Positions 5,259-23,690 of a stretch of 64,000 nt of DNA are shown here, one piece after another. Position numbers and translations under genes: made by a program. This DNA is from Reichenbachiella carrageenanivorans. Its GTDB lineage: Bacteria; Bacteroidota; Bacteroidia; Cytophagales; Cyclobacteriaceae. The number at the start of each line of letters is the position of its first letter. Position 1 is the first letter of the stretch. Under the pieces are notes generated by a model. The model saw nothing but the letters and a program-made list of their open reading frames with translations, was not told the DNA's origin and did not search any database. The stretch lies in assembly GCF_025639805.1 (NCBI RefSeq), contig NZ_CP106735.1, forward strand, positions 4,125,501-4,189,500. Direction: 5' to 3'.

Positions 5259-5322
5259 TCCTAACTATTGGGGTATGATCAAAGGGCTCAGGTCGCATAT
5301 TCATTTTAGTGTTTGTTATGGC
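5259..5322 (-). other. attC-like site 1 (distal end of array, degenerate)
   Basis: Read on the minus strand it starts with CCATAAC four bases after the nuclease gene's stop and ends with GTTAGGA at 5259-5265. Its first arm contains CACTAAAATGAATATGCGA, nearly identical to an arm of site 2. The other arm is poorly complementary. This is therefore an eroded or hybrid last site, marking the distal boundary of the array. Confidence 0.6.
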
Positions 5323-5326
5323 CTTT

Positions 5327-7333
5327 TTATTGGTTTACTGCGAGTCTTGTTAGCTCGTCAGAAGCAGCCCTGTTAATTTCAAATCCTTTCTCTTCAAGTT
5401 CCTCAACCACGGACTTTTTAAATTCTAAATTATCAATTAAATGCTTATGATGATGATCGAAGATTTTAAACAAATCGTCCCAAGTCATCGCGTAGATTTC
5501 ATAGTTGCTCACAGATTCTACGAGAAACTTTTTTCCTTTATTTTTTTGTGATTCGTATTTGCCTTCAATAAACGAGTCCACTCGCTTTCCAACAAGTATA
5601 AACTTCCATTTACGTAATTGACTGTTAAAACGAGGTTCATCAATAATGATGTTCATATAGTCTTCCACCTGCCGATATTGATCCTTCCCGATATCAACAC
5701 TTGGGCGCTTCAACTCGACAATGATATTCTCTTCCAAAGTGTACTCATTCGAGTTTGGGTCAGGAACATCAATTTGTCTACAGATAAAAACATCGGGTCT
5801 TTTTAATCGTTTCTTTTCTTCAATCCTGATCTTTTCCTTTTCACCTTTTTCCAGAAAGTACAAGTAGTTACTTAGTACGGTCTCCATGTTTTTATCTGCG
5901 GAAACCAAATGATACTGTTCACCAAATAACCAATAATTGTTCTCTATAACTTGTTGAATATGGTCTCTTTCATTTGTGAAAGGTTCAAGATCAAATACTA
6001 AGGATTTCAAAATTTGAATTACTGTAAGTCTATTCTCTAGAAGTCTAATTATAGCTGCAACGCTTGTGATTTTAGTTTTCCTTAGAGAATCTGCAAGTTC
6101 CTTCCTTTCTTCATCTGAAAGGGAAACAATCCCTTCCATAATATCTAGAACTTTTTCTCGTTCCTCGGAATCAAGAAGTAGGTTCAAAAAGCCTACAAGT
6201 GTTTTACTTGCCTCCTTTTTTAAGCCCTGAAAGATTTTGGGTTGAACACAATAGATCTCCCTGACTACATTTTCTAAATCTTTGAGTCTTAACTGCTCAT
6301 ATTCATTACTTCTGAATTTGGGGAAGATGTTCTTGGAATGATAGTCTTCAATGAGTTTTTCGGCTTGCTGTTTCCTTATGAATTCTTTTTCTTTCTCAAT
6401 AAGAAACTGATTCAGGTTCCGAATCAAAGCTTTGAATGTTCCATCAGCTTGATTCTTACCGTCAAATCCTAGTACGGGTTGATCGGTCTCTGTAAGCTTG
6501 AAGTTTTCAAAATAGGAAGACTGGACATAAACAGAATGATGGAAGTCAATAGCCTTGTTGTTGAAAGATGTGTGTTTTCTTTCGACCTCCTTCTTATCGC
6601 TGTTTAGAAAATAATAGAAGTATTTGTCACCAATCTTAACATTCCACCTAATGAATGAAACGTTGAAGAGTGTGTCACTAATTGTTACTTGAAAGTCTTC
6701 AGAATCGTCAATTATGCTTTGATATTCTAGCGGTTCCCCGTTGATAGATATTTCGTGGTTTGACTCCTTATTCAAATACAAAAACCACCCAAATTCCCCA
6801 GCTAAGTAGTCAACAAAATCTTTAGCCTTTAAGTGATCAGAGGAAAGATCGAAAAAGTCATTAAAGTGTACAATTGTGCCTGTGGCAGCTGAATTCGATA
6901 CCTTGTTTTCAAAGGTGTCAAAAGTGTGCTGCGATGACTTGTTAATGGATATCTTGAATTCTAGGTACTCCCCAGACTCTTCTCTGTAACGGGACTCCCA
7001 AACTACATTGTTGCAAAACAGGCTAAAAGAAAAGCGACCTTTTCCCTTCTTTCCCTTGATAAATCCATCAACGTTATAGGAGCTTGTTTTATTTGAGTCC
7101 AGAAAGTGTCCAAAGGTTTCTCCAATTTTAGATGAGCTAATTCCTTTGCCATCGTCAGTAATGGTAAATTCGTTTAGGTAGCCTAATTCGTTACCATTGT
7201 AATCAATGTTTATGTTAGTTGCACCTGCGTCAAACCCATTCCAAATATATTCGGCAATAGCTTTTTTGTAATCGGAAGGTAATCCGCTTTGCTCTACACT
7301 TTTAGATGTAATTTTTGCGTTGTGCTTTTTCAT
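5327..7333 (-). CDS. GHKL ATPase fused to PD-(D/E)xK nuclease-like domain; probable defence protein
   Basis: The 668 residues start with a Hsp90/MutL-type GHKL ATPase: N-box EYIWNGFDAGA (near 28), DDGKGISSSKIG (near 60) and KGKKGKGRFSFSLF (near 93). A helical middle region follows. The C-terminus has a nuclease-like core: RPDVFI (about 513), IIVELKRPS with E-x-K (about 538) and QVEDYMN, a PD-(D/E)xK arrangement similar to that of DUF4263/Shedu nucleases. GHKL-nuclease fusions (paraMORC-like) are associated with restriction and anti-phage loci. Cassette position supports a defence role, but this is inference. Its start lies 20 bases after the GTTATGG box of site 2. Confidence 0.7.
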   Translation of the reverse strand: MKKHNAKITSKSVEQSGLPSDYKKAIAEYIWNGFDAGATNINIDYNGNELGYLNEFTITDDGKGISSSKIGETFGHFLDSNKTSSYNVDGFIKGKKGKGRFSFSLFCNNVVWESRYREESGEYLEFKISINKSSQHTFDTFENKVSNSAATGTIVHFNDFFDLSSDHLKAKDFVDYLAGEFGWFLYLNKESNHEISINGEPLEYQSIIDDSEDFQVTISDTLFNVSFIRWNVKIGDKYFYYFLNSDKKEVERKHTSFNNKAIDFHHSVYVQSSYFENFKLTETDQPVLGFDGKNQADGTFKALIRNLNQFLIEKEKEFIRKQQAEKLIEDYHSKNIFPKFRSNEYEQLRLKDLENVVREIYCVQPKIFQGLKKEASKTLVGFLNLLLDSEEREKVLDIMEGIVSLSDEERKELADSLRKTKITSVAAIIRLLENRLTVIQILKSLVFDLEPFTNERDHIQQVIENNYWLFGEQYHLVSADKNMETVLSNYLYFLEKGEKEKIRIEEKKRLKRPDVFICRQIDVPDPNSNEYTLEENIIVELKRPSVDIGKDQYRQVEDYMNIIIDEPRFNSQLRKWKFILVGKRVDSFIEGKYESQKNKGKKFLVESVSNYEIYAMTWDDLFKIFDHHHKHLIDNLEFKKSVVEELEEKGFEINRAASDELTRLAVNQ

Positions 7334-7352
7334 TTTCTATTGTCACTATTGG

Positions 7353-7470
7353 CCATAACGACCAACTAAAATGAGTATGCGACCCAGTGGCTAGAAGCAC
7401 CGAAGTATCTGTTTTGTAATGTCCTTTCAGATGACTCAGTTCGCATATTCATTTTAGTGTCTGTTGTGCC
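7353..7470 (-). other. attC site 2
   Basis: A 118-base imperfect palindrome. Plus-strand ends are CCATAAC (7353-7359) and GTTGTGC (7464-7470). The inner arms ACTAAAATGAGTATGCGA and its inverted partner TCGCATATTCATTTTAGT pair with one mismatch. The arms have spacers of five and four bases to the boxes, the slight asymmetry expected of attC. It separates the nuclease gene from the lipoprotein/protease cassette. Confidence 0.85.
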
Positions 7471-7475
7471 TCGTA

Positions 7476-7958
7476 TTATATTTTTCTATACGTTTTGATT
7501 TCTCCCGATTTGATCAGTTCGTTAATCTTCTCGATAGTGTTGTTCTGCTCGTTCGGTTGTCCAAGGTTATACAATTCGTCAAATGGTGAAAAGTCAATGA
7601 TTTTAGATTTCATGGTTTCCAAAGTTGGTGCTTCATCAAGTTCCGAATATTCTTTCAAGGTATATTCAAGATAAACCGTACTTGGGTTCACTCCAATTTG
7701 ATCAAGAAAGTAGCCATTAGAAAGTTCAAAAGGTTTTAAATCCAAAAATCGTTGAACATCTGATGGTGCCGGATAAGATGTGATTGATCCAATCTTTTCG
7801 GAATACATGATTGGTACATTGTTCGAATAATCTTTTTTGCACTTGTAGACAATTACATTTTTTAAATCCATCACATTGAAAGTTGAAACTGCCGTTTTTG
7901 TTGAACTACATCCAAATAGCAGGAGACCACAAGTAATTATATAGATCAAAGCTCTCAT
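7476..7958 (-). CDS. Small lipoprotein, possible partner or inhibitor of the C10 protease
   Basis: This 160-residue protein has a lipoprotein signal peptide, with lipobox LLFGCSS at residues 13-19. The rest is a mixed, mostly polar domain that I do not recognise. Its start overlaps the stop of the C10 protease gene by four bases (ATGA type), so the two are translationally coupled in one cassette. C10 proteases in streptococci and Bacteroides are often encoded beside their own small inhibitors. That makes an inhibitor role plausible, but no motif proves it. The stop codon lies six bases before attC site 2. Confidence 0.6.
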   Translation of the reverse strand: MRALIYIITCGLLLFGCSSTKTAVSTFNVMDLKNVIVYKCKKDYSNNVPIMYSEKIGSITSYPAPSDVQRFLDLKPFELSNGYFLDQIGVNPSTVYLEYTLKEYSELDEAPTLETMKSKIIDFSPFDELYNLGQPNEQNNTIEKINELIKSGEIKTYRKI

Positions 7959-10570
7959 TTCACTAGAAGTTTTTTGGTTTCAGTTATGCCATTGTAATTT
8001 GCTCGTACGAAATAGGTTCCAGAGGATAAATTACTTATTGGTAGTTCTGTTTCATTAGATACATTTTCATTATGCATTATCACCTGCCCTTGAAGGTTGA
8101 TAATTTCCATTCTATCTATTTTATCTGATCCAGTACCCAATCTTACTTTAAACCTGTCCGATGCAGGGTTGGGGTAAATTGTAAAAACGTCTTGGTTTTG
8201 ATCCGTACCCAAAACCATTGATCTTTCAAGGTCAATATCAAGTTGATAAGTGCCGCGTTCACCCAAGAAGTACGGTGAAACCACAATTGTTAAAGTCTTA
8301 TCTCCTTCTGATGTTATTGAGGTTGGCAACAAATCGTCATAAGCCTCTGACCAGTTTTCTCCATCAAACGAATAAAGGAACAGTCCATCGACTGTATACT
8401 CATTTCCATTTCCGCTATTGTATGAATCATGCAATCTGATATCAATGGAGTAGTCAAATCCATCATCCAGTTGTACTGAATAAAAATCCCAATCACTTCC
8501 AACATGGATGTTTGATCCATTTGTTGAGATGGAAAGGTCATTTCCTGAAAAGTTTGCTGCCAGAGAATGGGCATCCTCAAATTCATCGTTATTTTCATAA
8601 TTATCTGGATCCAAAGGTGGAACTTGTAGAATCACCTTGAAAGGATTGATGAATGATGAAGATGAACCCGTGATTTCATAATCATAACCATCCCATTGAT
8701 GAAGTAGAGCCAATAAATAAGTTCCTGGGGGGACGTTTAGGCTGGTTGTTGTGAATGTCAATCCATCAGTGAAATGACATTGAGAGCAAAGGGTAACTCC
8801 AGTCTTTTCTTCAATGGTTGCCACAAATTCCCCTTCTAGGTTGTAAAGTGAAACGTCCAAAATTCCAGTGAACTCTTCCGCTGAATAGTTTGCAACATCA
8901 AGTTTTACCGAAAGAGTACCTTCATTGTATAAGTTTTCGGTGAGAACATCAATGGTGGAATAAAGGCTTATTATGTTCACATTGACAACTTCAATATCTA
9001 CATAGTCTGAGGTTAGAAAATCCCAAAAATCTGCCTTCATACCAACCCAATTTCCTCCCGTTGGTCGATAGAAAATGTAGACTCGATATTCACCGGGTAA
9101 CATGGTAAGTAGTCCGTCAGTACTAAAAGTTAAGCCATTGGTATAGTGAAAGCCGGGTTCTAAGCTCACGCTAGAAATGATTTCAATAAAGTCAACAAAG
9201 ACATCATTCTCGTCAAAAACTGCTGCCCCATAGTCACCATTAAAAGTATTGTTGCCGTCATTAAGAATATCTGTGGAAATCTCAAAATCTTCTCCGTAGG
9301 CAATAGTTGATTTGTTGGAAACAACATCATCGTAGATTTCTAATTCATAAGTCTGGGCTGCATCTGGTGGCTTAATGCCAATCAATGCTTGTTGGTTTTC
9401 ATTGTATGAACCTGCTCCAGATCCAATTCCGCCAGAACCGGGTGTTAGTGCATCCAGTAAATAATAACCATCCAACTGTCCTCCCCAACCCCAATTCATA
9501 TGAAAGAAGTCATTGTTGTCATAACCATCACATACCCAAGTGTGACCACCTTGACCAAACCCTGCATACTGTATAGGTCTACCTGCATCAAGTTCTTCTT
9601 TGAGTAGGTTTTTCCAATCATTGTCAGAATAATCTGCTCGATATAACCCTTGAATGGATTCTTTGTCATATCCGAAATATGTAATTAGACCATGTTGAAC
9701 AGTCTGCTCCTCTGGATAGCCGGGGATTATCACATAGCTTCCACTTCCACCTTCAGAGGCAACATTGTACTGCATTTCGACAGCAACACCGCAATGATAC
9801 ATTAAGGTAGCAACAGCATCGTTTGTGCTATTAATCGTATTAGGCATGGATTCCCAGTCATAGTATGTGGAGCTGAAATTGGCTGAAAGTGTTCCGTATT
9901 TCTCGTGGTTGTAGGAGTGAAAACCAATTCCTTTGGCTGGATATTTCCAGTACTTCATTATCTGTGCCATAGCGGTTGCTGGACAACCTGTAACGGTTAA
10001 TTCCTGATATTGAGCATCGTAGGGACATTTGGCATTAACATAGGGACTTTGATCCCATTTTGTTTCAATCAATGGATCAACGGAATTTGTTTCACTAACC
10101 CTAGCACTTGATGAAGCATCCTTTAATAAGCTTTCCCATCTTGAAGTTACTTCTTGAGTGGGTTCAATATCATTAGCTTGTATGAACCGAATTTGCTTTT
10201 TGTAGGTTTCCAGCCATTTTGCTAGTTGAGGAAAAACTTTATTTTCAGAGTATGTTCCCTCGAAAGAATAACCCAAAATGGGCAATGCAGCATCTTCATT
10301 TGAAACGATTATGAATCCAGTTTCTCCGAAATTATAGATGAAGTATGGGTTATTGGTTGGTGAAGAAAGCCTAGCATTGCTGTTAGTTGATGCTGTTGGA
10401 TATGCTAGAACCAAGTTCAGGTTTTGGGTTGCAATTCTTCCGCTTGAATTTGAAGTTAAACCCGTTAAGAAGTTAGTTGCTACTGCTTTAGCGGTCGGTT
10501 CGTCAATCTGCTTGGCAAACCCAGTTACCGTTAGCAGAAGAAGGAGAATTAAGATTTTTAGCTTTGTCAT
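7955..10570 (-). CDS. C10-family (streptopain-like) cysteine protease with T9SS sorting domain
   Basis: An upstream ATG at 10591 lies in the IS end; the ATG at 10570, just before MTKLKILILLLLLTVTGFA, gives a proper signal peptide and 871 residues. A propeptide (about 20-140) precedes the papain-like domain. The catalytic cysteine is in VTGCPATAMAQIMKYW (near 197) and the histidine in GQGGHTWVCDGY (near 342), followed by HMNWGWGG as in SpeB. Several beta domains follow. The C-terminal 75 residues form a T9SS type A sorting domain (YPNPASDRF to the final LLVK). It should be exported and cell-surface attached or released. An IS3 element ends 20 bases upstream of its start. Confidence 0.9.
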   Translation of the reverse strand: MTKLKILILLLLLTVTGFAKQIDEPTAKAVATNFLTGLTSNSSGRIATQNLNLVLAYPTASTNSNARLSSPTNNPYFIYNFGETGFIIVSNEDAALPILGYSFEGTYSENKVFPQLAKWLETYKKQIRFIQANDIEPTQEVTSRWESLLKDASSSARVSETNSVDPLIETKWDQSPYVNAKCPYDAQYQELTVTGCPATAMAQIMKYWKYPAKGIGFHSYNHEKYGTLSANFSSTYYDWESMPNTINSTNDAVATLMYHCGVAVEMQYNVASEGGSGSYVIIPGYPEEQTVQHGLITYFGYDKESIQGLYRADYSDNDWKNLLKEELDAGRPIQYAGFGQGGHTWVCDGYDNNDFFHMNWGWGGQLDGYYLLDALTPGSGGIGSGAGSYNENQQALIGIKPPDAAQTYELEIYDDVVSNKSTIAYGEDFEISTDILNDGNNTFNGDYGAAVFDENDVFVDFIEIISSVSLEPGFHYTNGLTFSTDGLLTMLPGEYRVYIFYRPTGGNWVGMKADFWDFLTSDYVDIEVVNVNIISLYSTIDVLTENLYNEGTLSVKLDVANYSAEEFTGILDVSLYNLEGEFVATIEEKTGVTLCSQCHFTDGLTFTTTSLNVPPGTYLLALLHQWDGYDYEITGSSSSFINPFKVILQVPPLDPDNYENNDEFEDAHSLAANFSGNDLSISTNGSNIHVGSDWDFYSVQLDDGFDYSIDIRLHDSYNSGNGNEYTVDGLFLYSFDGENWSEAYDDLLPTSITSEGDKTLTIVVSPYFLGERGTYQLDIDLERSMVLGTDQNQDVFTIYPNPASDRFKVRLGTGSDKIDRMEIINLQGQVIMHNENVSNETELPISNLSSGTYFVRANYNGITETKKLLVK

Positions 10571-10625
10571 TTTCGTTAGGAGGTATGTCACGTCCTGAAA
10601 TATGGCTACAGGTTAAAAGTTAAAT

Positions 10626-11483
10626 TTATGCTACTTTGCTGTACACCTGTTCAGGGGTTTTAAGTCCTAAAGATAGGTGTAATCTTTTATTGTTATAGAT
10701 GTCAATTGCGTTTTTAGTTGCCTGTTTTGCATGGCTTGTATTGACAAAACATTGGTCAAGATAAAACTCATCTTTTAGGATGCCATTCACTCTTTCAGCC
10801 ACTGCGTTTTCGTAACAATGGTTCTCCTCTGTCATACTGATTTTCATCTTTCGTTTTAGGAGCTCATTGACATATTGTTTACTGCAATATTGGATGCCTC
10901 TGTCCGAATGATGAATCAAATTTGATCCTGGTTTCGCTTTTCTAAAAGCAGACTTTAACGCCCTGAGACAGCCTGCTAATTCCAATGAATCACTCACATC
11001 AAACCCTACTATTTTCCTTGAATACAAATCGGTAATCAAAGCCAAATAACAGAAGCCTCTGACGGTTCTTATATAGGTGATATCTGATACCCAAACTTGA
11101 TTGGGAACTGTGATATTCAAGTCCTTTATCAAGTTGTTGTACTTGTAAAAATGATGATATGAATTGGTCGTCTTGCAAGAGACTTTCTTACGCCTGACAA
11201 GCATGTCATTGGCTCGTAATATATCGAATAAACGATCTCTGCCTATTTTTATACCTAATCTACTAAAGTCGGTAGCCAGATGCATTTGAAGCTTTTGTGT
11301 GCCTACTCTCGATTGAATTTTTCGCTCCTCTTTGACTAAACTGATCACTTTGGCTTCCGTGCTTTTTTGCACCTCAAAACGCTCTTTACATTTGTAGTAT
11401 GCGTCTCGATTGAGACGCATACTACTACATACTTTTTGAACACTCGCTAGCCCTGTTTTTCTTGATTTTCCTACTGCTCGCAT
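10626..11483 (-). CDS. IS3-family transposase OrfB (DDE integrase)
   Basis: This 285-residue catalytic subunit has an N-terminal HTH_21-like region and an rve integrase core. The DDE residues are visible: VSDITYIRT (D, near 122), HHSDRGIQY (D, near 183) and ENAVAERVNG (E, near 220). Its ATG overlaps the orfA stop as TGATG. The frame is also open upstream to an A8 run at 11503-11510 on the minus strand. A -1 frameshift there would make the OrfAB fusion that IS3 elements normally use. No internal stop is seen, so the gene looks intact. Confidence 0.92.
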   Translation of the reverse strand: MRAVGKSRKTGLASVQKVCSSMRLNRDAYYKCKERFEVQKSTEAKVISLVKEERKIQSRVGTQKLQMHLATDFSRLGIKIGRDRLFDILRANDMLVRRKKVSCKTTNSYHHFYKYNNLIKDLNITVPNQVWVSDITYIRTVRGFCYLALITDLYSRKIVGFDVSDSLELAGCLRALKSAFRKAKPGSNLIHHSDRGIQYCSKQYVNELLKRKMKISMTEENHCYENAVAERVNGILKDEFYLDQCFVNTSHAKQATKNAIDIYNNKRLHLSLGLKTPEQVYSKVA

Positions 11484-11854
11484 CAGGGCTTGATGTTTAA
11501 AGTTTTTTTTAAATCATCCACGCTTTTATAGCCCATATTCTCGGCTGCTACTTCTAAATAAGAGTCAAGCATTAGATTGTCCAGATCTTTCTTCAAGAGT
11601 AAGTCTTTGAGTTGCTGGACTTCTTTTTGGAGCTCCTTAATGCGCCCGATTTCGTCTGTTGTTTCCACAGTTACACGAGTGTTCATAAGGTCTTTCCGGT
11701 CATACTTTTCGATCCACTTATTGAGGGTGGTGCGGTTGATGTCGTAGATGCGACCTATTTCTGTTTTGTTGTATTTACCTGTACTAAGTTCGGCTAAAAC
11801 TTTGAGTTTGTAACCTTCGCTGTACCTGCGATTGATTCCGTCATTCTTATACAT
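11483..11854 (-). CDS. IS3-family transposase OrfA (helix-turn-helix subunit)
   Basis: This 123-residue protein has an N-terminal HTH_8-type domain (RRYSEGYKLKVLAELSTGK, then INRTTLNKWIEKYD) followed by a leucine-zipper coiled coil (about 70-105, ELQKEVQQLKDLLLKKDLDN). It recognises the element ends and partners OrfB. Near its 3' end is a run of eight A followed by C, a standard -1 slippery sequence. The start lies 35 bases inside the right inverted repeat. Confidence 0.9.
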   Translation of the reverse strand: MYKNDGINRRYSEGYKLKVLAELSTGKYNKTEIGRIYDINRTTLNKWIEKYDRKDLMNTRVTVETTDEIGRIKELQKEVQQLKDLLLKKDLDNLMLDSYLEVAAENMGYKSVDDLKKTLNIKP

Positions 11855-11900
11855 TTTGCTACGTGATGTGTAGCCTTATTTTAGGACGGGTCATCCTGCA

Positions 11901-12094
11901 CCATAACGTCCATGTATGAGTCGTGGCGGTTTAAAAGCACTAAAGATAGCGGTTTTCTTCAAGCCAATCCTGCGGATTGGCCGCTAATTTTATTCTCCCA
12001 AGCGAGCCAGTCCGCAGGATTGGCGGACTATCAGACACCCACTAAGCCTCGACTCTACCACCAACCCGCCATGACTTCATACATTATGTTAGCG
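11901..12094 (-). other. attC site 3
   Basis: A 194-base site with CCATAAC at 11901-11907 and GTTAGCG at 12088-12094. Inner arms ATGTATGAGTCGTGGCGG and CCGCCATGACTTCATACAT pair almost fully. Between the arms lies extra dyad sequence: AATCCTGCGGATTGG and its inverted counterpart about 55 bases later. The length is at the upper end for attC sites. The neighbouring gene's stop is six bases away at 12100. Confidence 0.82.
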
Positions 12095-12099
12095 GAAGT

Positions 12100-13008
12100 T
12101 TATTCCAGAAATTTTAATCTTTCATTTGTTAAAAACTCATAGATGAAATTCGCAGTTTCTTTGTTCAAAAGTTTCGAAACTGTGAGATCAAATAGTTTGC
12201 CTTTTAGCAACTGACTCCATGACTTCTTAGAGAGCCTTTCTTGCATTTGTCTCATCTCTTCGAAATCATCATAAATGATTTCTTGACCAAGTCCGAGTTT
12301 GTTCAGTCGTTCAAGTATTTCATCAATTTTTTCATTTAAACTGCTTTCGGTCGCTTGCTTTTCAGTTTTTCGTTTCTTGGAGTTAAGCTTTCTTTCGATG
12401 TAATTAGCACCTTTGACGGTTAGCTGAACCTCACTTTTGTTAGAGTACTTGTCTTTTTTGACGACATAGCCTCTTCTGTCAAGATCATCAGCAATTTCAG
12501 AAGGTTCGTCTGTTCTGTATGGAATATCATTGTAATCAAGTATTAAAGCAATGTCATAATAATTATCATTGAAAACATGTGATAGTTTTTCCAGTATGTA
12601 ATCTTGCTTTTCTCTTATACTATTAATCGTTGGTCGTTCTATCCCCTTTAGTGAATCTATCAGCTTTACATAGTCTCTGAAGAATTTAAAAGTCTTCTTC
12701 AACCTTGTTACTCGATATTTTTGTTCTTCCAGTTCTGGATGTTTGCTTCGTTCAATATCATACCTAAACCCAAAATCGTCTAATAGACTTATTGTACTGG
12801 TGGAAATCATTCCCGTCAGAATTTCAGGTTCAGGTGAGATACTTTTTTGAGCAAAGTCTTCGATCTTTTTCTGAAGTTTCTCAAGTTCCTTTTTAAGCAA
12901 TTCAGGATTAGTCTGTTGAGAATCCGTTAGAGTGTTGATTGAAATAGAAAATCTATCTAGTTCACCAGTAAAGTCTTGATATTTAATTTTGATTAATGTG
13001 AATTTCAC
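12100..13008 (-). CDS. Cassette-encoded cytoplasmic protein of unknown function
   Basis: This 302-residue soluble, charged protein starts with GTG at 13008, 17 bases inside the cassette's GTTAGCG box. It is rich in Lys, Glu and Leu with predicted helices throughout. Residues about 165-210 look winged-helix-like (DDLDRRGYVV, then EVQLTVKGANYIERKL). A coiled-coil segment (about 225-270) contains EMRQMQERLSKKSW. No catalytic motif or membrane segment is seen, and I do not recognise the family. A nucleic-acid-binding or regulatory role is only a guess from the wing-like segment. Confidence 0.6.
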   Translation of the reverse strand: MKFTLIKIKYQDFTGELDRFSISINTLTDSQQTNPELLKKELEKLQKKIEDFAQKSISPEPEILTGMISTSTISLLDDFGFRYDIERSKHPELEEQKYRVTRLKKTFKFFRDYVKLIDSLKGIERPTINSIREKQDYILEKLSHVFNDNYYDIALILDYNDIPYRTDEPSEIADDLDRRGYVVKKDKYSNKSEVQLTVKGANYIERKLNSKKRKTEKQATESSLNEKIDEILERLNKLGLGQEIIYDDFEEMRQMQERLSKKSWSQLLKGKLFDLTVSKLLNKETANFIYEFLTNERLKFLE

Positions 13009-13091
13009 GACTTGCAGTAATTTCCGCTAACCTTTAGCTTTCCTGTCTATAATTAATCAAAGAAATAAAGGTTTTACTTTTAATAGTAAAA

Positions 13092-13235: not shown

Positions 13236-13245
13236 TATTGAAATT

Positions 13246-15375: not shown

Positions 15376-15391
15376 TCTTATAGGTTATGTG

Positions 15392-15518: not shown

Positions 15519-16136
15519 TCTTTTCTTCGGTTTAAAGTTCTCTTGGTTGATTGTTCTAATAAATCTTGAAAGTTCGTTGGATAATTCTGTCACGTTGTTC
15601 ATTCGATGATTTTTGACTGATATTCTTTTTGATACACCTTGAAAGTCCAAGTCGATATCATCTGTTGAAAATTTTCGAGTCAAACGTCTCACTTCATCTT
15701 TACCGATAACTTCAACTTCGGTTAAAGCTTGAAACTTTATAATATCAGGTTCGTGCTGTGTGTCCACCTCCGCGATAATCTCGAAGTTATCAATCTGACC
15801 TGTCAAAATTGGCTCACAAAATTGCCATTTATTTTTATCGTTCTTCAGTTGTTCTCTAAACCCGTGGTTCAATAGCTCTGAAAATGGATGAGTGCTAAAT
15901 GCCTTTCTTCGTTTATGTAAATCCCAAGTTCCTCGAACAGTTCCAACAACAAGTATGAATAGTGGCATTCCTATTCCTGCACCAAAAATCACTGTCAGAA
16001 AGAGTGTTAGTTCAGGTACTTGCCCGTTCAAATAGCCAATTCCGAAAGCTATCAGCACTAGAGCTAGGAAAAGTACTGATGTAAATTTGAACGCAAATAC
16101 AATTTTAGTCTTATTGAGTTGGAAAAATTCTTTCAT
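15513..16136 (-). CDS. Cassette-encoded small membrane protein, unknown function
   Basis: The frame stays open to 16367, but that extension is translated attC sequence (arginine- and proline-rich). The ATG at 16136, 13 bases after the GCATAAC box of site 6, is the natural start and gives 207 residues. Two membrane helices lie near residues 13-33 and 41-66 (VFAFKFTSVLFLALVLIAFG; LTLFLTVIFGAGIGMPLFIL). A cytoplasmic mixed alpha/beta domain (about 75-207) follows and ends in a basic tail FKPKKRA. I do not recognise the family. No catalytic motif is seen. Confidence 0.6.
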   Translation of the reverse strand: MKEFFQLNKTKIVFAFKFTSVLFLALVLIAFGIGYLNGQVPELTLFLTVIFGAGIGMPLFILVVGTVRGTWDLHKRRKAFSTHPFSELLNHGFREQLKNDKNKWQFCEPILTGQIDNFEIIAEVDTQHEPDIIKFQALTEVEVIGKDEVRRLTRKFSTDDIDLDFQGVSKRISVKNHRMNNVTELSNELSRFIRTINQENFKPKKRA

Positions 16137-16148
16137 GCAGTCGATTGA

Positions 16149-16379
16149 GCATAACGTCCGCGTATGGCGAGTGCCCTCGCGGTTTCTAAAAGCAGAAAGA
16201 TAGCCGAATCGCGACAAACCACAAAAGCCTGTATAGCCATTCCTGTTGATTCGAGGCTGCCAGCTAATCCGAATGTCCATTCTACGGCCTTCTACTCTTT
16301 CCGAGCGAAGCGGCGGTGCTGTTGCACGCAACGCTTTTGGTAAGGCAGCATGGGCATTCGCTATCACGCTATGTTATGC
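16149..16379 (-). other. attC site 6
   Basis: The longest site, 231 bases, with GCATAAC at 16149-16155 and GTTATGC at 16373-16379. Arms GCGTATGGCGAGTGCCC and GGGCATTCGCTATCACGC pair. The middle includes a GC-rich stretch unlike surrounding sequence (for example CCGAGCGAAGCGGCGGTGC at about 16301), possibly an added insertion within the variable region. Confidence 0.8.
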
Positions 16380-16389
16380 ACCTTTTTCG

Positions 16390-16794
16390 TTATTCAAGTT
16401 GTTCACGAACCCAGCTGATGTATGCCTGTTCCTTGAAGTCAAACCAGTTTTGACGATACTCAGAGTTGTCTATGGCCCAATTGAATTTGCTGAAAGGTTT
16501 ACGTTGAGAAAGCTGGTTAAAAAGCCGAGTTCGAAAATTCTCGTCAGTTAAGGAGTTCGCAAAGTCTTCCATGACTCTAAATGCCTGATTGGAACCCATC
16601 TTCTCAAATCGTTGGTATTCACCCCAATTTGCATCAATTCTGTCTAGGGTCTCTTGCCAAGCTTCGGGATCAAAATATTCACTGTTCGGGTCGGGGTGAT
16701 GTTCAATCGTACCAGTTGGTTCGTGAAAGAAGCAGAGTTGACCACAATCCAAAAGTTCGGCTATCTCCTTGATATGTTCTTCTGTTGGCTGCAT
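16390..16794 (-). CDS. UPF0158-family protein
   Basis: This 134-residue acidic protein matches the UPF0158 pattern: an N-terminal IAELLDCGQLCFFHEPTG, then RIDANWGEYQRFEKMGSNQA and AFRVMEDFANSL, and a C-terminal FNWAIDNSEYRQNWFDFK and YISWVREQL. Members are small cytosolic proteins of unknown function that recur in mobile cassettes. The ATG lies 22 bases inside the GTTATGC box of site 7, and the stop ten bases before site 6. Confidence 0.75.
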   Translation of the reverse strand: MQPTEEHIKEIAELLDCGQLCFFHEPTGTIEHHPDPNSEYFDPEAWQETLDRIDANWGEYQRFEKMGSNQAFRVMEDFANSLTDENFRTRLFNQLSQRKPFSKFNWAIDNSEYRQNWFDFKEQAYISWVREQLE

Positions 16795-16815
16795 CTGAGT
16801 CTTATAGATCGTGGT

Positions 16816-16946
16816 GCATAACGGTTAGTATATGAAAAGTAGGCGATTTCGAAGCACTAAACTTTCGGTTATGCACAAACTTTGACATGAACCAAAAGCC
16901 TTGAACATACTACTATTTCGCCTATTTTTTATATACATTGTTGGCA
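16816..16946 (-). other. attC site 7
   Basis: A 131-base site with GCATAAC at 16816-16822 and GTTGGCA at 16940-16946. Arms GTATATGAAAAGTAGGCGA and TCGCCTATTTTTTATATAC pair well, with spacers of five and three bases. The different right box (GTTGGCA) equals the start box of the neighbouring DUF1254 cassette. The 140 bases between this site and that gene's stop show no gene. Confidence 0.85.
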
Positions 16947-17088
16947 AATCGTTTTTATTTTCCAAACAGGAATTTAATTTTTGTGAAACCTGAAAAACAG
17001 GTTGTGTACCAGAAATTATCATTGAATACTATGGTTCTACAAAAGAGTGATTTTTCCATGCTAATTTTCATTTAAATTAAAAAATGAC

Positions 17089-18156
17089 TTACTTTTTCTC
17101 AGCAATCGCAATCGAAATAAATTCATTGATGTAGTCGGCCGTAGCTTTAGGGTCGTTTGGTAAATACAAACGCAAAGAAGCATTCCAACCTTCCACAACA
17201 TCGACTGAATAAGACGAACCACTATTGAAATCAACGGTTACGGTTCCATCGCCATTGTCTTTCATACGGTCCATGCTGATGTAGAAATTCTCTTTGGCAA
17301 TCCACGATTTGTCATTATAGGTTGTAATCGAGAAAAATCCGCCATTTTCATAATCTAAGTCAGGCTTAGGGAAGGTTATTGTTTGATTTTTAGCATCGCT
17401 CCCTTGACCTTTAATCAAAGCGGTGTACTGCGCATAAGCAGGAGGTAATCCGCCCCAGCCCATCGCGGCACAGTGTAAATAATCTTTTTCGTTTACATCT
17501 TCTGGTTTAGTACCAAAACCTGTAAAACTTGAAATCTGCAAACCGTCTTCCGTCACATCTTTAATCAGTTTGTTTCTAAATGCTTCCACGTCTTCTGCTT
17601 TATACCCTTTTGCTTCGTAAGGTTTAGCCGATTTGGCATCGATTACCATGCTTTCTTGTGCGCGTTTGGTTTCTTCCATATCGTCAGAAATTCGGGTTCT
17701 TGCCAGAATATAAACATAGTCACCACCAGTTAAATCTTCAGATGAAAGGGTTGCCGTTTCTCCTGCAAAAACAACTTTTCTGGTAAAGTGATTTTCATCA
17801 ATGAGCTGCATCATTTGCATGGCGCCATTTTCCCTTTCGGGGATAGAAAATGTAGCTCCTTTGCTCACATCAACCAACGCCAACGAATAAATAACATCGG
17901 CATTAGAGCGGATAATCGTTTGGTTTTCCATGGTTACCGCCTCTTTGTGTAGCCATTCGTTAATCGGTTTTGCATTTTGCTGAATATTGCAATTCCAGTC
18001 CGTTTCTGCTTTTACGTAATTATCTTTTGTCACCTCCATCTGCGTTGCGGCAGTTTGTTCGGTTTCTTTTGTTTCTGATTTTGTCTTGTGATTGTTGTTG
18101 CATGATGTAAATGCAATCGTGCAAATCATCATTGCTGTAATTGTTATTTTTTTCAT
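17089..18156 (-). CDS. DUF1254/DUF1214-type lipoprotein
   Basis: The ATG at 18156 (not the upstream one at 18204) gives a lipoprotein signal peptide with lipobox AFTSCNNN and 355 residues. The first domain (INEWLHKEAVTMENQTIIRSNADVIYSLALVDVSKG, given here in two parts: residues about 60-75 and 76-95) fits DUF1254. The C-terminal part fits DUF1214: NGGFFSITTYNDKSWIA, then FYISMDRMKDNGDGTVTVDF and LRLYLPNDP. Such proteins are envelope proteins of unclear activity. Its cassette is bounded by matching GTTGGCA/TGCCAAC boxes. Confidence 0.8.
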   Translation of the reverse strand: MKKITITAMMICTIAFTSCNNNHKTKSETKETEQTAATQMEVTKDNYVKAETDWNCNIQQNAKPINEWLHKEAVTMENQTIIRSNADVIYSLALVDVSKGATFSIPERENGAMQMMQLIDENHFTRKVVFAGETATLSSEDLTGGDYVYILARTRISDDMEETKRAQESMVIDAKSAKPYEAKGYKAEDVEAFRNKLIKDVTEDGLQISSFTGFGTKPEDVNEKDYLHCAAMGWGGLPPAYAQYTALIKGQGSDAKNQTITFPKPDLDYENGGFFSITTYNDKSWIAKENFYISMDRMKDNGDGTVTVDFNSGSSYSVDVVEGWNASLRLYLPNDPKATADYINEFISIAIAEKK

Positions 18157-18198
18157 TTTACTGGAGTTATAATTATATAAGTTTTGGTTTTTAATGTT

Positions 18199-18316
18199 TG
18201 CCAACGACCAGCTAAAATCCGTAGGCTGGACATCTGTAAATATCTAGAAAGTATCTTAACCCACCAACCTTGGCAAATATCTCAGTAAGCCTATGGATTT
18301 TTAGCGTCTGTTAGGT
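18199..18316 (-). other. attC site 8
   Basis: A 118-base site with TGCCAAC at 18199-18205 and GTTAGGT at 18310-18316. Arms GCTAAAATCCGTAGGCT and AGCCTATGGATTTTTAGC pair with one extra base and one mismatch. Spacers to the boxes are five and four bases. Confidence 0.87.
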
Positions 18317-18368
18317 TTTCGTGCATTTTTCCGTCCTGTTTCTGCGTTCTTGTTAGTTCGTTGTTTGC

Positions 18369-21300
18369 CTAAATTCGTCCAATATTGTAGAGAGGATTAT
18401 CTTCATCGGTATTATCTTTTTTAAGGTTAAATCGTACTTTAAGAAAATCCCCAACTATTCGGGCATTCTGAATACGAGATTTATTTTCAAGGCCAAGAGT
18501 AGGCAAAATGTGAACCGGACTAGTTTCTAAATGCATTCTGAACTCTTCGGTTTTAAAGGCTTCTAATGGAAATTCTATATAGAATTCCTTTTCATCTTGA
18601 TAAACAATATCATGAAATTTCTTTCCTAATTCTTCTGCATATTCCTCTTCACTTCCCTTAAAATCCTTTAGCTTCTGCTTCGTTTTATAATTGGCAACAA
18701 AAAGCAACATTGCCGATAATATTTGCCAATCTAGCCACCCTTCTCGTCTGAGTTCCCAAACAAATTGATGGAAATGCACATTTTGTGTTAGCTTGCTAAG
18801 AGTGATGTAAAGACCGTTATAACTATTTTTGTATCGTCCCTTAATGGCTTTAATGGCCTCTTTCTTATCATACTTTTGACTTATATCATTTCGCCAAACA
18901 AGAACATCGTTTTGTCTTGGTAAAGAAGCGAATGCGTTGCTATCAATGTTCGCAAGCTCGAATCCATTAAGAAATTCAAATTCCTCTTTTTTAAACAGAA
19001 ATCTATACATTCTTTGATATAGATTTCCAGACAAGGACCTATTAGGTAAGTCAAAATCCTTCAGAAGTCTTTCAAAAAGGTGTTCAAATTCTTCTTTTTT
19101 CAAAAGGCTGAACTCAAGAAGAATCAACTTTAGCGTCAAAGAAACAGATGCTGCGTGAAAATTAATTTCTTCAGGTTTTGGACTATCAAAATGCTTCACA
19201 AAAGCTTTCCAAGTATATGCATCAGTTGAGAGTTGTTCAGGAGCTTGTAAATCCTTCGAAAGTTCAAGCTGAATTCTTAATTCACCCTTAACAAAATGGA
19301 AATCGAATTCAGAAAGTGCCATTTCAGCTAATAATATCTGGAGAAATGAGCAGAACTCCTCCGCAATTGGGATATTATCAAAATTGTTCTCAAACTCAAT
19401 TGTCCACTTAATGCCTAAGGCAAGGAATATAATTTCTGAACTATTTCCGAAATCACTAAGTGGATAACTGTCAATTTTTCTGTCAATCAGATTAATAATC
19501 TTCTCGTCAGGATACTCTTCTTCAATAATCTCAAATGCGGGTTCTATATAGTTTTCTCCAACTGATCCAAGAGATTTCAAAACTTGTTCAGATAGACCAT
19601 TTTCATCTTTAGCAATACTTGGAATTGCTTTTAATATGATTGCGAATGCTGAAAAAGTTTCACCGAGCATCTCTTCTTCAAGAATGTTCAAATCATCTGA
19701 GCTAAATTCAAATCTGGATGTAATAAAGAGACGAAAATCCCGAATTGCAGAAAGCCACCTTCCCTGCAGAAAATCATAATAAAATAGCATATTGAATCCC
19801 TTGATCAATTTGTCAAAATAGATTTCAGTTGTGCCATTTAATAATATCCATAGCCCAGAAAGTGCGTAATTCTTTGCTGCGATATTCAGACCCATAGAGG
19901 AGTATAATTGCGAGATGTTTAGAAGAGCAAGAATATGACCTTCGATTGTTTCGCTACGATAGTAGAGGTCTTTTGCTTTATGAAAATAATCCAGAGCTTT
20001 TAACAAGAGCCTTCTATCCTTTGATTGCATATAGGAATAACCTCGTTGCACCTGTACTTTAGCCTTACTGAAATCTCCATCTCTTTTGCTTATTAAATCA
20101 TCCAGTTTTTCATTAAAGGCTTCTAGCTCATTGATCAATTCTAAAAACTTATCGGAATCTATTTTCAATAAGAAAGCACAGTATTTATTGATTCGCTCTC
20201 CAAAAGTTGTTACGTGGTATAAATCTGCCTTATCAATATTTTCAAGAACTTTAGAGTAGTACTTAACTAGCTCTTTAGGTATTTCTTTTCTCTTTTCAAG
20301 GTTGCTCATCAGAAGAGCTTGGTTGCCTAAAATCTCGTAATAATGGCAGATATCATTTGGATTGATTGAGACTGACAACCTGTTTTCAATTTCTATCTTT
20401 AGATTTTTATTCCACTCAATTATTTGTGCAAACTCAATATCTAATTTTTTCGAAAGAGAGGTAGTAAAGCAGATATTGAGTATAGCCTGATAATCTTCGA
20501 GTTCTTGTGGATTTTTAAAGTTGTTCAAGTTGCCAAGGTATTCTTTAACAAGGGTCTCATCACCCAATAGATCTCCTGTTGGTTGCTTGAAGTTTTCCTC
20601 AGGTAAAACCCTCAGCCAGACATATTCATAAACTGCCTTATTCCTGAGGTACTCGTCTAAGTCAAGTTCCTTGATATAAAAATTCAAAAGGGTAATCCAG
20701 AACTCTGAGTGACGATGTAGATGGCTATTTCGTCTACAATGTCTTCCAGCATCAATGATTTCAAATAGCTCTCCAAGGATTAAATGATCAATTTTTTCAA
20801 CTTCATTCCATCGAGCTTTTACTTCCCAATACCATCGGTCAGTGTCGGAAGAGCTTGACTTTATAAGGCGTTCTAAAATTTTACTGTTAAGATTCCTTTC
20901 TTCAGGTATTTTTTGAGTTGCCTTCAGAGAGGCTTCCTTGTAAAGAATACCAAATAAGGACTCTATTTGATGATCTCCTAGATTCAGGTTCAGGTTTTTG
21001 AGACGCAGATTGATTCTATCAATTGTTTCGGAAAACTCTAATTGAGGATTTGTTTCTCCAAAAGACCATTTAATATTTCTAACAAAGCTTTCCCATTCTG
21101 TATCCTGAATTGATTTTAGTTGCTCTAATGATTCTGAAATTATTTTAGGCTCATATTCCTCTTTTAATTGTTCTGACTTAGATGTTACATATTCAGTAAT
21201 TATTGCCTTTGTTAATTGTTTACATTTCTCAATTAAATCAGATTCAAGATTATCCTGATTTTCATACCATTGTCTTAGGAGTTCGGCATTGTTGTCTTTG

Positions 21301-21647
21301 TATTTTCCCGCAATACTGGTATTTGTTTCAAAAACGAATTCTTTGTCAAAATCTTTGTATCCAGTCTTTATGTGGAGAAAAAAGAAGTTTATTAGGCTTT
21401 TTACAATTTCCTCACTCTTAAATGAGAAGTTTGAGGCATAGAGTTTGACTTGTCTGAATTTCAATTTTCCATTGGATTCATCTCTTTGAAAAATGTCATC
21501 CTCAAATTCACAGAAAATCTCTTCATCCAGCCCGTCTTGATAGTTTTCAATCCATAATTCTAAAGTTCGAAGTATTTGATACTGATAGCCTCTTTGGGAA
21601 TCAACTGCTTCGGTATTTCTCTGATATATATGGAGTTGGTTATTCAT
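18369..21647 (-). CDS. Large cassette protein: DUF4297-like nuclease domain plus helical-repeat region
   Basis: The 1092 residues begin RGYQYQILRTLELWIENY, then E47, EDD (49-51) and FRQVK (64-68). This matches the start of DUF4297/Cap4-type dsDNA nucleases, whose PD-(D/E)xK core uses acidic residues followed by Q-x-K. The remaining 900 residues are helical and repeat-like, with TPR-like pieces (ALDYFHKAKDLYYRSETIEG; LALLNISQLYSSMGLNIAAK). No P-loop, transmembrane segment or signal peptide is visible, so it is not a STAND NTPase. A nuclease with a solenoid sensor for phage defence is the best inference. It is a single gene filling a 3.4 kb cassette, unusually large. Confidence 0.55.
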   Translation of the reverse strand: MNNQLHIYQRNTEAVDSQRGYQYQILRTLELWIENYQDGLDEEIFCEFEDDIFQRDESNGKLKFRQVKLYASNFSFKSEEIVKSLINFFFLHIKTGYKDFDKEFVFETNTSIAGKYKDNNAELLRQWYENQDNLESDLIEKCKQLTKAIITEYVTSKSEQLKEEYEPKIISESLEQLKSIQDTEWESFVRNIKWSFGETNPQLEFSETIDRINLRLKNLNLNLGDHQIESLFGILYKEASLKATQKIPEERNLNSKILERLIKSSSSDTDRWYWEVKARWNEVEKIDHLILGELFEIIDAGRHCRRNSHLHRHSEFWITLLNFYIKELDLDEYLRNKAVYEYVWLRVLPEENFKQPTGDLLGDETLVKEYLGNLNNFKNPQELEDYQAILNICFTTSLSKKLDIEFAQIIEWNKNLKIEIENRLSVSINPNDICHYYEILGNQALLMSNLEKRKEIPKELVKYYSKVLENIDKADLYHVTTFGERINKYCAFLLKIDSDKFLELINELEAFNEKLDDLISKRDGDFSKAKVQVQRGYSYMQSKDRRLLLKALDYFHKAKDLYYRSETIEGHILALLNISQLYSSMGLNIAAKNYALSGLWILLNGTTEIYFDKLIKGFNMLFYYDFLQGRWLSAIRDFRLFITSRFEFSSDDLNILEEEMLGETFSAFAIILKAIPSIAKDENGLSEQVLKSLGSVGENYIEPAFEIIEEEYPDEKIINLIDRKIDSYPLSDFGNSSEIIFLALGIKWTIEFENNFDNIPIAEEFCSFLQILLAEMALSEFDFHFVKGELRIQLELSKDLQAPEQLSTDAYTWKAFVKHFDSPKPEEINFHAASVSLTLKLILLEFSLLKKEEFEHLFERLLKDFDLPNRSLSGNLYQRMYRFLFKKEEFEFLNGFELANIDSNAFASLPRQNDVLVWRNDISQKYDKKEAIKAIKGRYKNSYNGLYITLSKLTQNVHFHQFVWELRREGWLDWQILSAMLLFVANYKTKQKLKDFKGSEEEYAEELGKKFHDIVYQDEKEFYIEFPLEAFKTEEFRMHLETSPVHILPTLGLENKSRIQNARIVGDFLKVRFNLKKDNTDEDNPLYNIGRI

Positions 21648-21755
21648 CCTTAGTTAAGTGCGAAAATAAAATTAAAGCTATTTTGCAAGTTTTAGTCTGT
21701 GGTTTGGCTTGACTTGCAATTATCAAGAGGATAATCCTCTGCGTCACGGCATGAA

Positions 21756-21877
21756 ACCTAACGGTCTTGTATAACCGCCAGTTATGGGGTTATATGCGTT
21801 AATATCCGGTTGAGCATATTCCGATTGGATTTGGACTTAGTAGAATCTGCCGTAATTGCGGTTATATAATGTTGGCA
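21756..21877 (-). other. attC site 9
   Basis: A 122-base site with ACCTAAC at 21756-21762 and GTTGGCA at 21871-21877. Arms TATAACCGCCAGTTATGG and CCGTAATTGCGGTTATA pair with small bulges. It lies five bases from the amidohydrolase stop. Confidence 0.86.
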
Positions 21878-21881
21878 ACAG

Positions 21882-23615
21882 TTACTCTAATTCATATACC
21901 TTTTTTCCTTCTTTTATAGATTCTAAGACTTGAATGTCGTGAATTTGAATTGGGTCAATTTTAAGTGGGTTTTTATCTAAAATCACAAAATCAGCTAATT
22001 TACCAACTGTAAGTGTACCCTTTCTCCCTTCTTCAAAGTACTGGAAAGCTGCCCAATCTGTTAAGGTTTTCAATCCTTCATAAACTGTAATTCTTTGGTC
22101 TGCACCTAGTACTTTACCGCTTCGCGTTACACGGTTAACAGTAGCATCCAATACGCGCATTGAGTTAGGAAAGGTGACTGGTGCATCGTGATGTGAAGTG
22201 ATAGTAAGTCCAGCGTCAATCACATCTCTACAAGGAGAAATATAGTCTGCTCTTGGCTCTCCCAATACAGACTCTTTATGCCAATCTCCCCAATAAAAGG
22301 TATGCATAGGAAATAGAGAAGGAAGGATACTTAATTCAACCAATTCAGGAATTTGATCTTTACGTAAGGTTTGCCCGTGAATAAGTACAGTTCTGTGATC
22401 TAGATATCCAAATTCTTTTTCGGCAGCCCCTACAGCTTTTATGTATTGATCTATAGCAGCATCTCCATTACTATGACATAAAATTTGCCATTTGTTTTTA
22501 AAAGCCGTTTTTACATATTCGGTTGCTTTATCGTCATCCATAATCGGATAACCTTCATAGCACCCTGTTCTACCTTCAGGATTCACATGATAACATTTGG
22601 TAAGCCAAGCTGTTTTTCCTTGTGGAGAACCATCTAAAGTTAACTTTACACCTCCTAATCTAAACTTGTTTTTATACTGGTGTGTTGGTGTATAAGTTCC
22701 TTCTGCAACTTGTTCGATGCCTAAAGTCATATCCGGGTAGGCAACGACATCAATATAATAAGCTTGTTCATCGGCTGCTTTTCTAAGTGCAGCAAGCTGA
22801 TCTGTTGTCGTTCTACCATCTTGTGCTGTTAAGTAGCCTTTTTTGGCATATTCGTCTTGACCTTGCTTAATACACTTGGCTGCCATATCATCGTCAATTT
22901 TCCCTAATACAGGGAATAAGACTTTAAAAAAAGCAGCTTCTTCTAAGACTCCGTTAGGATTTCCGTTGCTATCTTTTCTTATGACGCCTCCATCGGGGTT
23001 AGGTGTATTTGCTGTGTAGCCCATTAGCTCTAATCCCTTGGAGTTGATAGAAGCTAAATGTCCCGATTGATGAATAATAATAACAGGCAGATCGGTACTT
23101 ACTTTGTCTAAATCAGAAGCTTTTGGATGATCTTTTTCTGCTAATTGAGAATCATCATAACCGTTACCAATTATCCATCCCAATTTTTCTAAAACATATT
23201 TACCTGTTTCTGTTTCCTTGTATTCATTTAATGTTTCAACTACAGAATTAAAGTCTACACCAGGACCATCAGGTGGTGGTAAAATATTCGCACACATAGC
23301 TGTAAAGCCTACATTGTAAAAATGCCCATGTCCGTCCAGAAATGCCGGAAGCATTGTTTTTCCTTCCAAATCCACTTGATTTGCTTTGTTGTAATTTTCC
23401 GATGCCTCGTCTTTGTTTCCTACAAAAACGATTTTCCCATTTTCTTCTACAACTGCTTCTGCATAAGTTGGCTCATCGCTTTCCATTGTAATAATGTCGC
23501 CATTGTAGTAGATTGTAGCCGTTTTTTCAACTACTGAAGTTTCTTTTTTCGTTTGATTGCAGCAAATAAAAACTATAGCAATCAAAATTGTCATTATAAG
23601 AAATTTAGTTTTCAT
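21882..23615 (-). CDS. Exported amidohydrolase family 3 lipoprotein (YtcJ-like)
   Basis: This 577-residue protein starts with a lipoprotein signal peptide (lipobox VFICCNQ). The metal-dependent amidohydrolase fold follows: N-terminal beta part with GKTMLPAFLDGHGHFYNVG (metal-binding H-x-H near 97-99), VIIIHQSGHLASINSKGLEL, KLTLDGSPQGKTAWLT, ILCHSNGDAAIDQY, TSHHDAPVTFPN and the C-terminal GKLADFVILDKNPL. The substrate is unknown; YtcJ-like enzymes hydrolyse exo-N-acyl bonds. It is the cassette nearest the right end, where an integrase would lie in a complete integron, and its start is 21 bases from the TGCCAAC box. Confidence 0.88.
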   Translation of the reverse strand: MKTKFLIMTILIAIVFICCNQTKKETSVVEKTATIYYNGDIITMESDEPTYAEAVVEENGKIVFVGNKDEASENYNKANQVDLEGKTMLPAFLDGHGHFYNVGFTAMCANILPPPDGPGVDFNSVVETLNEYKETETGKYVLEKLGWIIGNGYDDSQLAEKDHPKASDLDKVSTDLPVIIIHQSGHLASINSKGLELMGYTANTPNPDGGVIRKDSNGNPNGVLEEAAFFKVLFPVLGKIDDDMAAKCIKQGQDEYAKKGYLTAQDGRTTTDQLAALRKAADEQAYYIDVVAYPDMTLGIEQVAEGTYTPTHQYKNKFRLGGVKLTLDGSPQGKTAWLTKCYHVNPEGRTGCYEGYPIMDDDKATEYVKTAFKNKWQILCHSNGDAAIDQYIKAVGAAEKEFGYLDHRTVLIHGQTLRKDQIPELVELSILPSLFPMHTFYWGDWHKESVLGEPRADYISPCRDVIDAGLTITSHHDAPVTFPNSMRVLDATVNRVTRSGKVLGADQRITVYEGLKTLTDWAAFQYFEEGRKGTLTVGKLADFVILDKNPLKIDPIQIHDIQVLESIKEGKKVYELE

Positions 23616-23635
23616 ATCGCTGTTTTTATAATTGT

Positions 23636-23690
23636 TGCCAACATCCGGATATCAACCACTAGTGGTTGATATATCCCTTACATCCGGGAT
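23636..23690 (-). other. Terminal recombination site (short attC or attI-like)
   Basis: TGCCAAC at 23636-23642 forms the start box of the first cassette. Next to it is a tight palindrome at 23647-23676 (GATATCAACCAC and GTGGTTGATAT) around ACTAGT, then CTTACAT where a GTTRRRY box is expected. It has only one good box, so it is either a short degenerate attC from a lost cassette or the insertion (attI-type) site. Confidence 0.5.

Follow-up and report, generated by a model that had tools for sequence, protein, structure and literature searches.

The chromosome of Reichenbachiella carrageenanivorans (a single contig of 4,812,735 bp) very probably holds a dispersed integron system, in which an array of nine gene cassettes with its own attI site is served in trans by a cognate integrase encoded 650 kb away. 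The array lies within the 64,000 nucleotides analysed here (positions 4,125,501-4,189,500; hereafter the window). As judged from sequence alignment, the integrase belongs to a group that is without the IntI-specific domain, known as the I2 helix, and that is found here in Bacteroidota. Integrase, attI and attC sites are linked in many genomes, the cassette is an exact unit, cassettes turn over, and related genomes have no array at the place that it occupies in the window.

In the mechanism that we propose, the tyrosine recombinase would place and shuffle cassettes between the attI at the 3′ end of its own gene and attC sites and cleave at G|TT, attC presumably being recombined as a folded single strand. 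The same enzyme, whose activity is predicted from its sequence, would act in trans on the window array. The extra-base asymmetry of attC, a feature associated with single-strand bias, was not consistently seen.

The window array and its sites

The array occupies positions 5282-23679 on the - strand of the window, flanked by a CDF transporter gene (4273-5160) and a gene for a LuxC-like acyl-CoA reductase (23806-24807). A first-pass annotation had described it as an integron cassette array with nine palindromic sites and a terminal half-site, bearing RYYYAAC and GTTRRRY boxes. The cassette array itself is borne out by attC sites on one strand and by the cassette structure, but the inventory of sites is revised: eight attC sites, of which seven are intact and one is split by an IS110-family element, are accompanied by a cut attC and a copy of attI.

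7353-7469, 11901-12094, 15392-15518, 16149-16379, 16816-16946, 18199-18316 and 21756-21877, - strand: intact attC sites (scan and fold prediction)
14301-14485 with 13025-13030, - strand: eighth attC site, split at its G|TT core by IS110 (sequence)
about 5282-5321, - strand: truncated ninth attC site, 5′ arm only (sequence and fold prediction)
5236-5281, no strand assigned: 46-bp stretch that cuts the last attC site and recurs near the end of a congener array (L212:843-888, 95.7%); probably a remnant of an insertion element
23640-23679, - strand: attI copy at the first-cassette end of the array, terminating in GTT (matches the integrase attI, L023:2964-3003, at 37 of 40 bases; fold prediction)

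An interpretation of 23630-23700 as an attC half-site was abandoned because the region matches the attI of the integrase. The boxes, in their strict form, also fell away: each is found at just one of the seven intact sites, and the invariant feature is AACA...CGTT. An oriented scan for this feature with paired arms was run at a score of at least 24 (at least 22 in a looser variant), the orientation being taken from the true sites. At the higher score it returned seven sites on the - strand of the 18.6-kb array and none on the + strand of the array, none on either strand of the window's other 45 kb, and none in 372,940 bp of dinucleotide shuffles (20 shuffles); at the lower, one match lay beyond the array and the shuffles gave four. 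A less specific scan (AAC...GTT with paired arms, without orientation) also picks up chance matches elsewhere in the window. The window attC sites are predicted to fold into long hairpins, stable on either strand. The loop of the site at 11901-12094 holds a 19-nt inverted repeat, 95% complementary (11963-12024), forming a hairpin inside a hairpin. An Rfam scan of the window gave nothing at gathering scores.

The IS110-family element that splits the eighth site is inserted between ...GCG and TT... in all six copies inspected in this genome (the window, L022, L023, L024 and two in L172). In its position at the G|TT core it resembles the IS1111-attC elements of other bacteria.

The earlier observation that the window encodes no tyrosine recombinase holds, in that none of the genome's 13 PF00589 matches falls inside it. 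The array had consequently been called a CALIN (cluster of attC sites lacking integron-integrases), with its mobilisation left open. It resembles a CALIN in having at least two attC sites and no integrase beside them, but differs in carrying an attI, with a likely cognate integrase in the same chromosome. Given an attI in the window array, and elsewhere in the genome an integrase gene with its own attI and array, mobilisation in trans by an enzyme that fails the IntI model is now the likely answer.

The integrase and its attI

Canonical intI is absent from the genome at the cut-off of the IntI model TIGR02249 (265 bits), and the best match, at 191.3 bits, is an open reading frame (ORF) of about 392 residues at 4,798,813-4,799,988, corresponding to L023:1816-2991, which we regard as the integrase. 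The model aligns to it as two stretches, leaving model positions 179-239 unmatched. The integrase fails the model because it is without the IntI-specific insert of about 42 residues, seen as an alignment gap; the spacing from ArgI to the HxxRH motif is 91 in all 14 insert-less members measured, as against 133 in all 12 IntI proteins measured. Residues R239, K264, H328, R331, H354 and Y363, invariant in 18 of 18 sequences, are presumably the catalytic set.

Directly after the stop codon lies the attI, a near-palindrome ending in GTT, from which cassettes run on along the integrase strand. Two cassettes of this array show no difference along a stretch of 851 bp that runs precisely from GTT to GTT. 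An exact 92-bp copy of the integrase 3′ end with attI (L022:12239-12330) heads an array upstream, which runs opposite to the integrase array, and a further array lies near 2.78 Mb, so that three arrays besides that of the window have been found so far. Across the genome stretches examined, 26 array-oriented sites score at least 22 (7 + 5 + 10 + 1 + 3); three off-array matches at this score, two in other stretches and one in the window, are taken as chance. By contrast, the loci of seven other recombinases of the genome gave no attC site in 49,068 strand-bases. A covariance model, R1, was built from 19 attC sites of this genome. Its E-values are rough, and it undercounts long attC sites because it detects only those of up to about 135 nt; over the whole genome it gave at least six matches (150 of 934 first-look candidates scored). 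Two broader MAFFT alignments intended for a second covariance model misplaced the arms and were not used.

The integrase is 31-32% identical to IntI1 and IntI2, compared with 27-28% to two of the genome's own recombinases taken as XerC/D, and shares with IntI1 the C-terminal end '.PLD'. Its best NCBIfam match is NF040815 (XerA_Arch), at 222.4 bits just above the cut-off of 220. Among PDB entries it matches 5hxy and 4a8e by sequence, and by fold 5hxy first and then IntI4 (2a3v); a structure model of the whole protein reached a predicted template modelling score (pTM) of only 0.47. It resembles XerA, XerC and XerD in its catalytic domain and in these matches, but differs from them in an extra N-terminal domain and in its attI/attC context. 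For a tree, 14 of 58 rows were left out by choice (six IntI near-copies or fusion, one near-copy subfamily row and seven long-branch recombinases of this genome), as were two more without the HxxRH motif. Two Xer rows separate from all others (97/98), and the root was placed there by choice, so that the tree itself does not show the family to be nearer to IntI. The approximately unbiased test does not reject the insert-less rows as a monophyletic group (p-AU 0.297).

The extra N-terminal part comprises about 100 residues. HARP (PF07443) matches it best at 23.0 bits, below the cut-off of 25, in a distant member, and gives no sequence match in the close integrase family. An N-terminal profile reached HARP chain 4o66 among PDB sequences only at E 0.76, ranked below unrelated chains, and Foldseek returned nothing for the domain at E<=0.001. 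These comparisons weakly suggest a HARP/XPB-like domain, which differs from the N-terminal DNA-binding domains of HARP (SMARCAL1) and XPB in lying below the Pfam cut-off and in that its DNA binding is putative here. Such a domain may help to recognise folded attC in place of the I2 helix, a possibility towards which we lean slightly sceptical. A literature search, with preprints and most subscription journals outside its reach, found no paper linking HARP with XPB.

In the portions of the literature available to us, the I2 helix is regarded as the novelty by which integron integrases came to recombine single strands (PMC7790495), and the IntI-specific domain is described as necessary for integron recombination (PMC9668308). 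Integrases without I2 on attI/attC arrays would make the role of this helix directly testable: either another domain does its job or attC is used differently.

Distribution, turnover and alternative explanations

Relatives of the integrase are numerous: 7,878 of 7,998 scored candidates matched at E<=1e-20, and 120 of these were listed. Eighty Bacteroidota loci in named genomes (L026-L105), out of at least 503 confirmed stretches, were scanned for sites. Over their 1,145,021 bp, R1 matched 49 times at E<=0.05, in 29 of the loci and always downstream of the integrase and in its sense. The oriented scan (score at least 24) found 216 sites downstream in sense within 347,642 bp, compared with three downstream in antisense, six and one on the two strands within 704,878 bp upstream, and five in 1,042,926 bp of shuffled control. 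Where at least 500 bp follow the integrase, 52 of 59 loci have one attC site or more and 40 have at least two. Where the sequence is long enough for the test, 67 of 78 loci have an attI-like palindrome with a GTT within 130 bp past the stop codon; the rate is 95 of 787 for upstream windows and 205 of 1,560 for base-shuffled ones. The R. carrageenanivorans locus is counted in the 78 but failed the strict test. In most loci the cassette-start GTT lies outside the palindrome, as is expected of attI x attC recombination. Some attC sequences are common to several genera, that at 16816-16946 of the window being matched in Gillisia, Maribacter and Arenibacter loci (L069, L070, L084, L094). Many draft contigs among the 80 loci end less than 300 bp past the integrase; assemblies may be broken by the attI/attC repeats, and arrays thereby hidden.

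The frequency of the family was gauged in class and phylum samples, evenly drawn with one genome per species and each including the genome studied here. In the class sample the integrase (E<=1e-100) occurs in 15 of 345 genomes and 15 of 178 genera, and canonical IntI above cut-off in a single genome. In the phylum sample a relative at E<=1e-60 is present in 61 of 296 genomes; canonical IntI rises above cut-off in 84, of which only one (G037) is of the same class, Bacteroidia. Sixteen regions from 15 phylum-sample genomes (35-53% identity) were inspected. An attC site stands on the integrase strand in all 11 with more than 1 kb past the gene, the first at 0.7-3.2 kb in ten of them and only at about 10 kb, with an overlapping match on the other strand, in the eleventh (L228). 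No site is seen in the other five, whose sequence stops within 0.1-0.25 kb of the end of the gene.

The first-pass annotation had considered such arrays rarely described in Bacteroidota. This fits the literature, where the available text of one paper names a single complete integron in Bacteroidetes, that of Salinibacter ruber M1 (PMC9024848), and Bacteroidota appear among the phyla listed with integrons in the part of the literature seen; the system itself, however, is not rare. A wider proposal can be made, which we rate at about even chances: that Bacteroidota have an integron class of their own, with I2-less integrases and HARP/XPB-like recognition of folded attC, which was overlooked because searches require the IntI-specific domain, which is the main integron system of Bacteroidia, and which served as a platform for the capture of tet(X) before Acinetobacter and Enterobacteriaceae. 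If true, this would help to explain the near-absence of complete integrons from Bacteroidetes, give a major marine and gut phylum a gene-capture platform, and suggest how tet(X) was mobilised.

Within the genus, the integrase is present in six of eight genomes, that of R. carrageenanivorans included, in one as a fragment match. Some congener and phylum-sample matches come with an in-frame stop, which may simply be the terminal stop codon falling inside the alignment; these matches are not read as pseudogenes. None of the seven congeners has an array between the CDF and LuxC-like genes. The gap between the two, by aligned ends, is about 190 bp in G597 and about 35 bp in G596; G599 and G598 have 0.7-0.8 kb of other sequence there, in G599 a gene that is desaturase-like by eye; and for G595, G600 and G601 a search of the 20 kb around LuxC gave no CDF match. 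Two isolated matches of at least 22 (L197, L198) occur elsewhere in these congener stretches. We infer that the window array arose by insertion of an attI-bearing piece between the two genes. Behind the integrases of five congeners, stretches of 20-40 kb hold 18, 19, 9, 2 and 1 sites scoring at least 22, with four antisense matches. Nearly all matches between these arrays and those of R. carrageenanivorans fall at attC sites or the integrase; the exceptions are one whole UPF0158 cassette, a piece of IS3 sequence and some short matches where the array ends. The UPF0158 cassette (cassette 4 of the window) is also present in the array of R. ulvae (L209:12641-13108, 82.5% over 469 bp). At the level of sequence comparison this is cassette turnover. 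The conserved gene order that might have undone the integron reading was not found, because the congeners have no array at this place and the arrays inspected in five of them have attC families in common but, one case apart, no cassettes.

The system is like classical sedentary chromosomal integrons (IntI) in its tyrosine recombinase gene with an adjacent attI, its one-strand cassettes ending in attC, its AAC...GTT cores with paired arms, its cassette exchange between genomes and its G|TT boundary. It is unlike them in that the integrase is without the insert and has the N-terminal addition, is co-directional with the cassettes and has a near-palindromic attI behind its stop codon, and in that the strict boxes are mostly unmet.

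Alternatively, host XerCD or a phage-type recombinase might move the cassettes, with the family here being a Xer paralogue that acts on attI palindromes which are no more than a landing site. The attI is near-palindromic in many loci, which we take to be dif-like. The XerA match, the missing I2 helix and the tree, which with its chosen root does not of itself place the family nearer to IntI, are also compatible with this account. We nevertheless judge it very unlikely: the cassette-start GTT mostly lies outside the palindrome, identity is higher to IntI1 and IntI2 than to the presumed XerC/D, the C-terminal end is that of IntI1, and the genome's own Xer loci are without attC sites. An ordinary CALIN, left as a relic of a canonical IntI integron after loss of intI, with cassettes moved by an outside IntI and the recombinase family a bystander, appears highly improbable. 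CALINs may arise in this way, according to the accessible text of one study (PMC8618304), and IntI of the canonical type is frequent in the rest of the phylum sample, but in the class sample it is far outnumbered by the present integrase, which occurs together with attI and attC in many genera and whose attI matches that of the window. That the palindromes are terminators or other dispersed intergenic repeats is barely credible and largely refuted, for although they separate genes of one orientation and give stable folds on both strands, one with a further hairpin in its loop, the exact GTT-to-GTT duplicate, the cassette common to a congener array, IS110 at G|TT and the near-absence of sites upstream and on the other strand all speak against it.

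Cassette cargo and tet(X)

The dispersed integron system may bear on tet(X). Among the matches listed, the best-scoring plasmid relatives of the integrase outside Bacteroidota are 'xerD/TnpF' fragments of Acinetobacter and one uncultured-bacterium plasmid. Such a fragment is 51% identical to the integrase over residues 150-380, and fragments of this kind precede tet(X3) in the two plasmid records inspected. In L107:5043-7115, an attI-like palindrome comes after the fragment, with its GTT (5880) 18 bp ahead of tet(X3), and 3′ of the gene is the beginning of an attC-like arm. This Acinetobacter context ('xerD'/TnpF - tet(X3) - ISCR2) is like an integron of the present type in having an integrase relative and an attI-like palindrome before the gene, but unlike it in that the integrase fragment is shortened and the attC cut; the fragment groups with another subfamily row (L112, 71%). 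Plasmids of Empedobacter falsenii (L138:80-1490) and Bacteroides fragilis (L139:4009-5341) have a GTT 5′ of tet(X) and a full attC-like site 3′ of it (1358-1490, score 33.4, and 5209-5341, score 35.2, respectively). Homology to the tet(X3) context starts exactly at the GTT (query position 191) in Empedobacter and 8 bp earlier in B. fragilis. Scattered scan matches scoring 20-26 occur away from cassette ends in L106 and L107. From these contexts, four records inspected out of 293 with a match, tet(X) has the look of a cassette belonging to this type of integron. Flavobacteriaceae have been put forward in print as the origin of tet(X), to go by the excerpts available (PMC8635130, PMC11615727); a search of titles and abstract beginnings, with preprints and most subscription journals outside it, found no paper on tet(X) as a cassette.

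In the window, the cassette genes are all on the - strand, as the first-pass annotation had it for native genes, and the sole Pfam-matching + strand gene in the array is the IS110 transposase. The cassettes and insertion sequences are as follows.

21756-23640, - strand: cassette 1, amidohydrolase gene (21882-23615) and attC (21756-21877)
18199-21756, - strand: cassette 2, gene of 1092 aa (18369-21647) with Cap4 nuclease domain and PADLOC LmuA match, and attC (18199-18316)
16816-18199, - strand: cassette 3, gene with DUF1254 match and uncertain start codon (17089-18204), and attC (16816-16946)
16149-16816, - strand: cassette 4, UPF0158 gene (16390-16794) and attC (16149-16379)
15392-16149, - strand: cassette 5, ORF from 15513 (longest to 16367; start near 16138 by eye) with no Pfam match, and attC (15392-15518)
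13025-15375, - strand: cassette 6, gene with no Pfam match (14479-15375), and attC split by IS110
11901-13025, - strand: cassette 7, gene with no Pfam match (12100-13008), and attC (11901-12094)
7353-10591, - strand: cassette 8, gene for a C10 peptidase with I69 inhibitor domain and secretion sorting tail (7955-10591), a second ORF of 160 aa (7476-7958), and attC (7353-7469)
5282-7353, - strand: cassette 9, HATPase_c_3 gene (5327-7333) and truncated attC (about 5282-5321)
10585-11895 (ends approximate), - strand: IS3-type insertion sequence, ORFs 10626-11483 and 11483-11854
13031-14300, + strand: IS110-family element of 1270 bp, transposase 13246-14265, inserted at an attC G|TT core

The IS3-type element lies in the one 4.4 kb gap between attC sites of the window. 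The product of cassette 2, with its Cap4 and LmuA matches, is likely to act in phage defence. Another array of the genome, array B (L022:6577-9158), carries genes for an N6 methyltransferase and for DraIII-like restriction, which together with the Cap4/LmuA-like cassette suggests, from these domain matches, a defence cargo.

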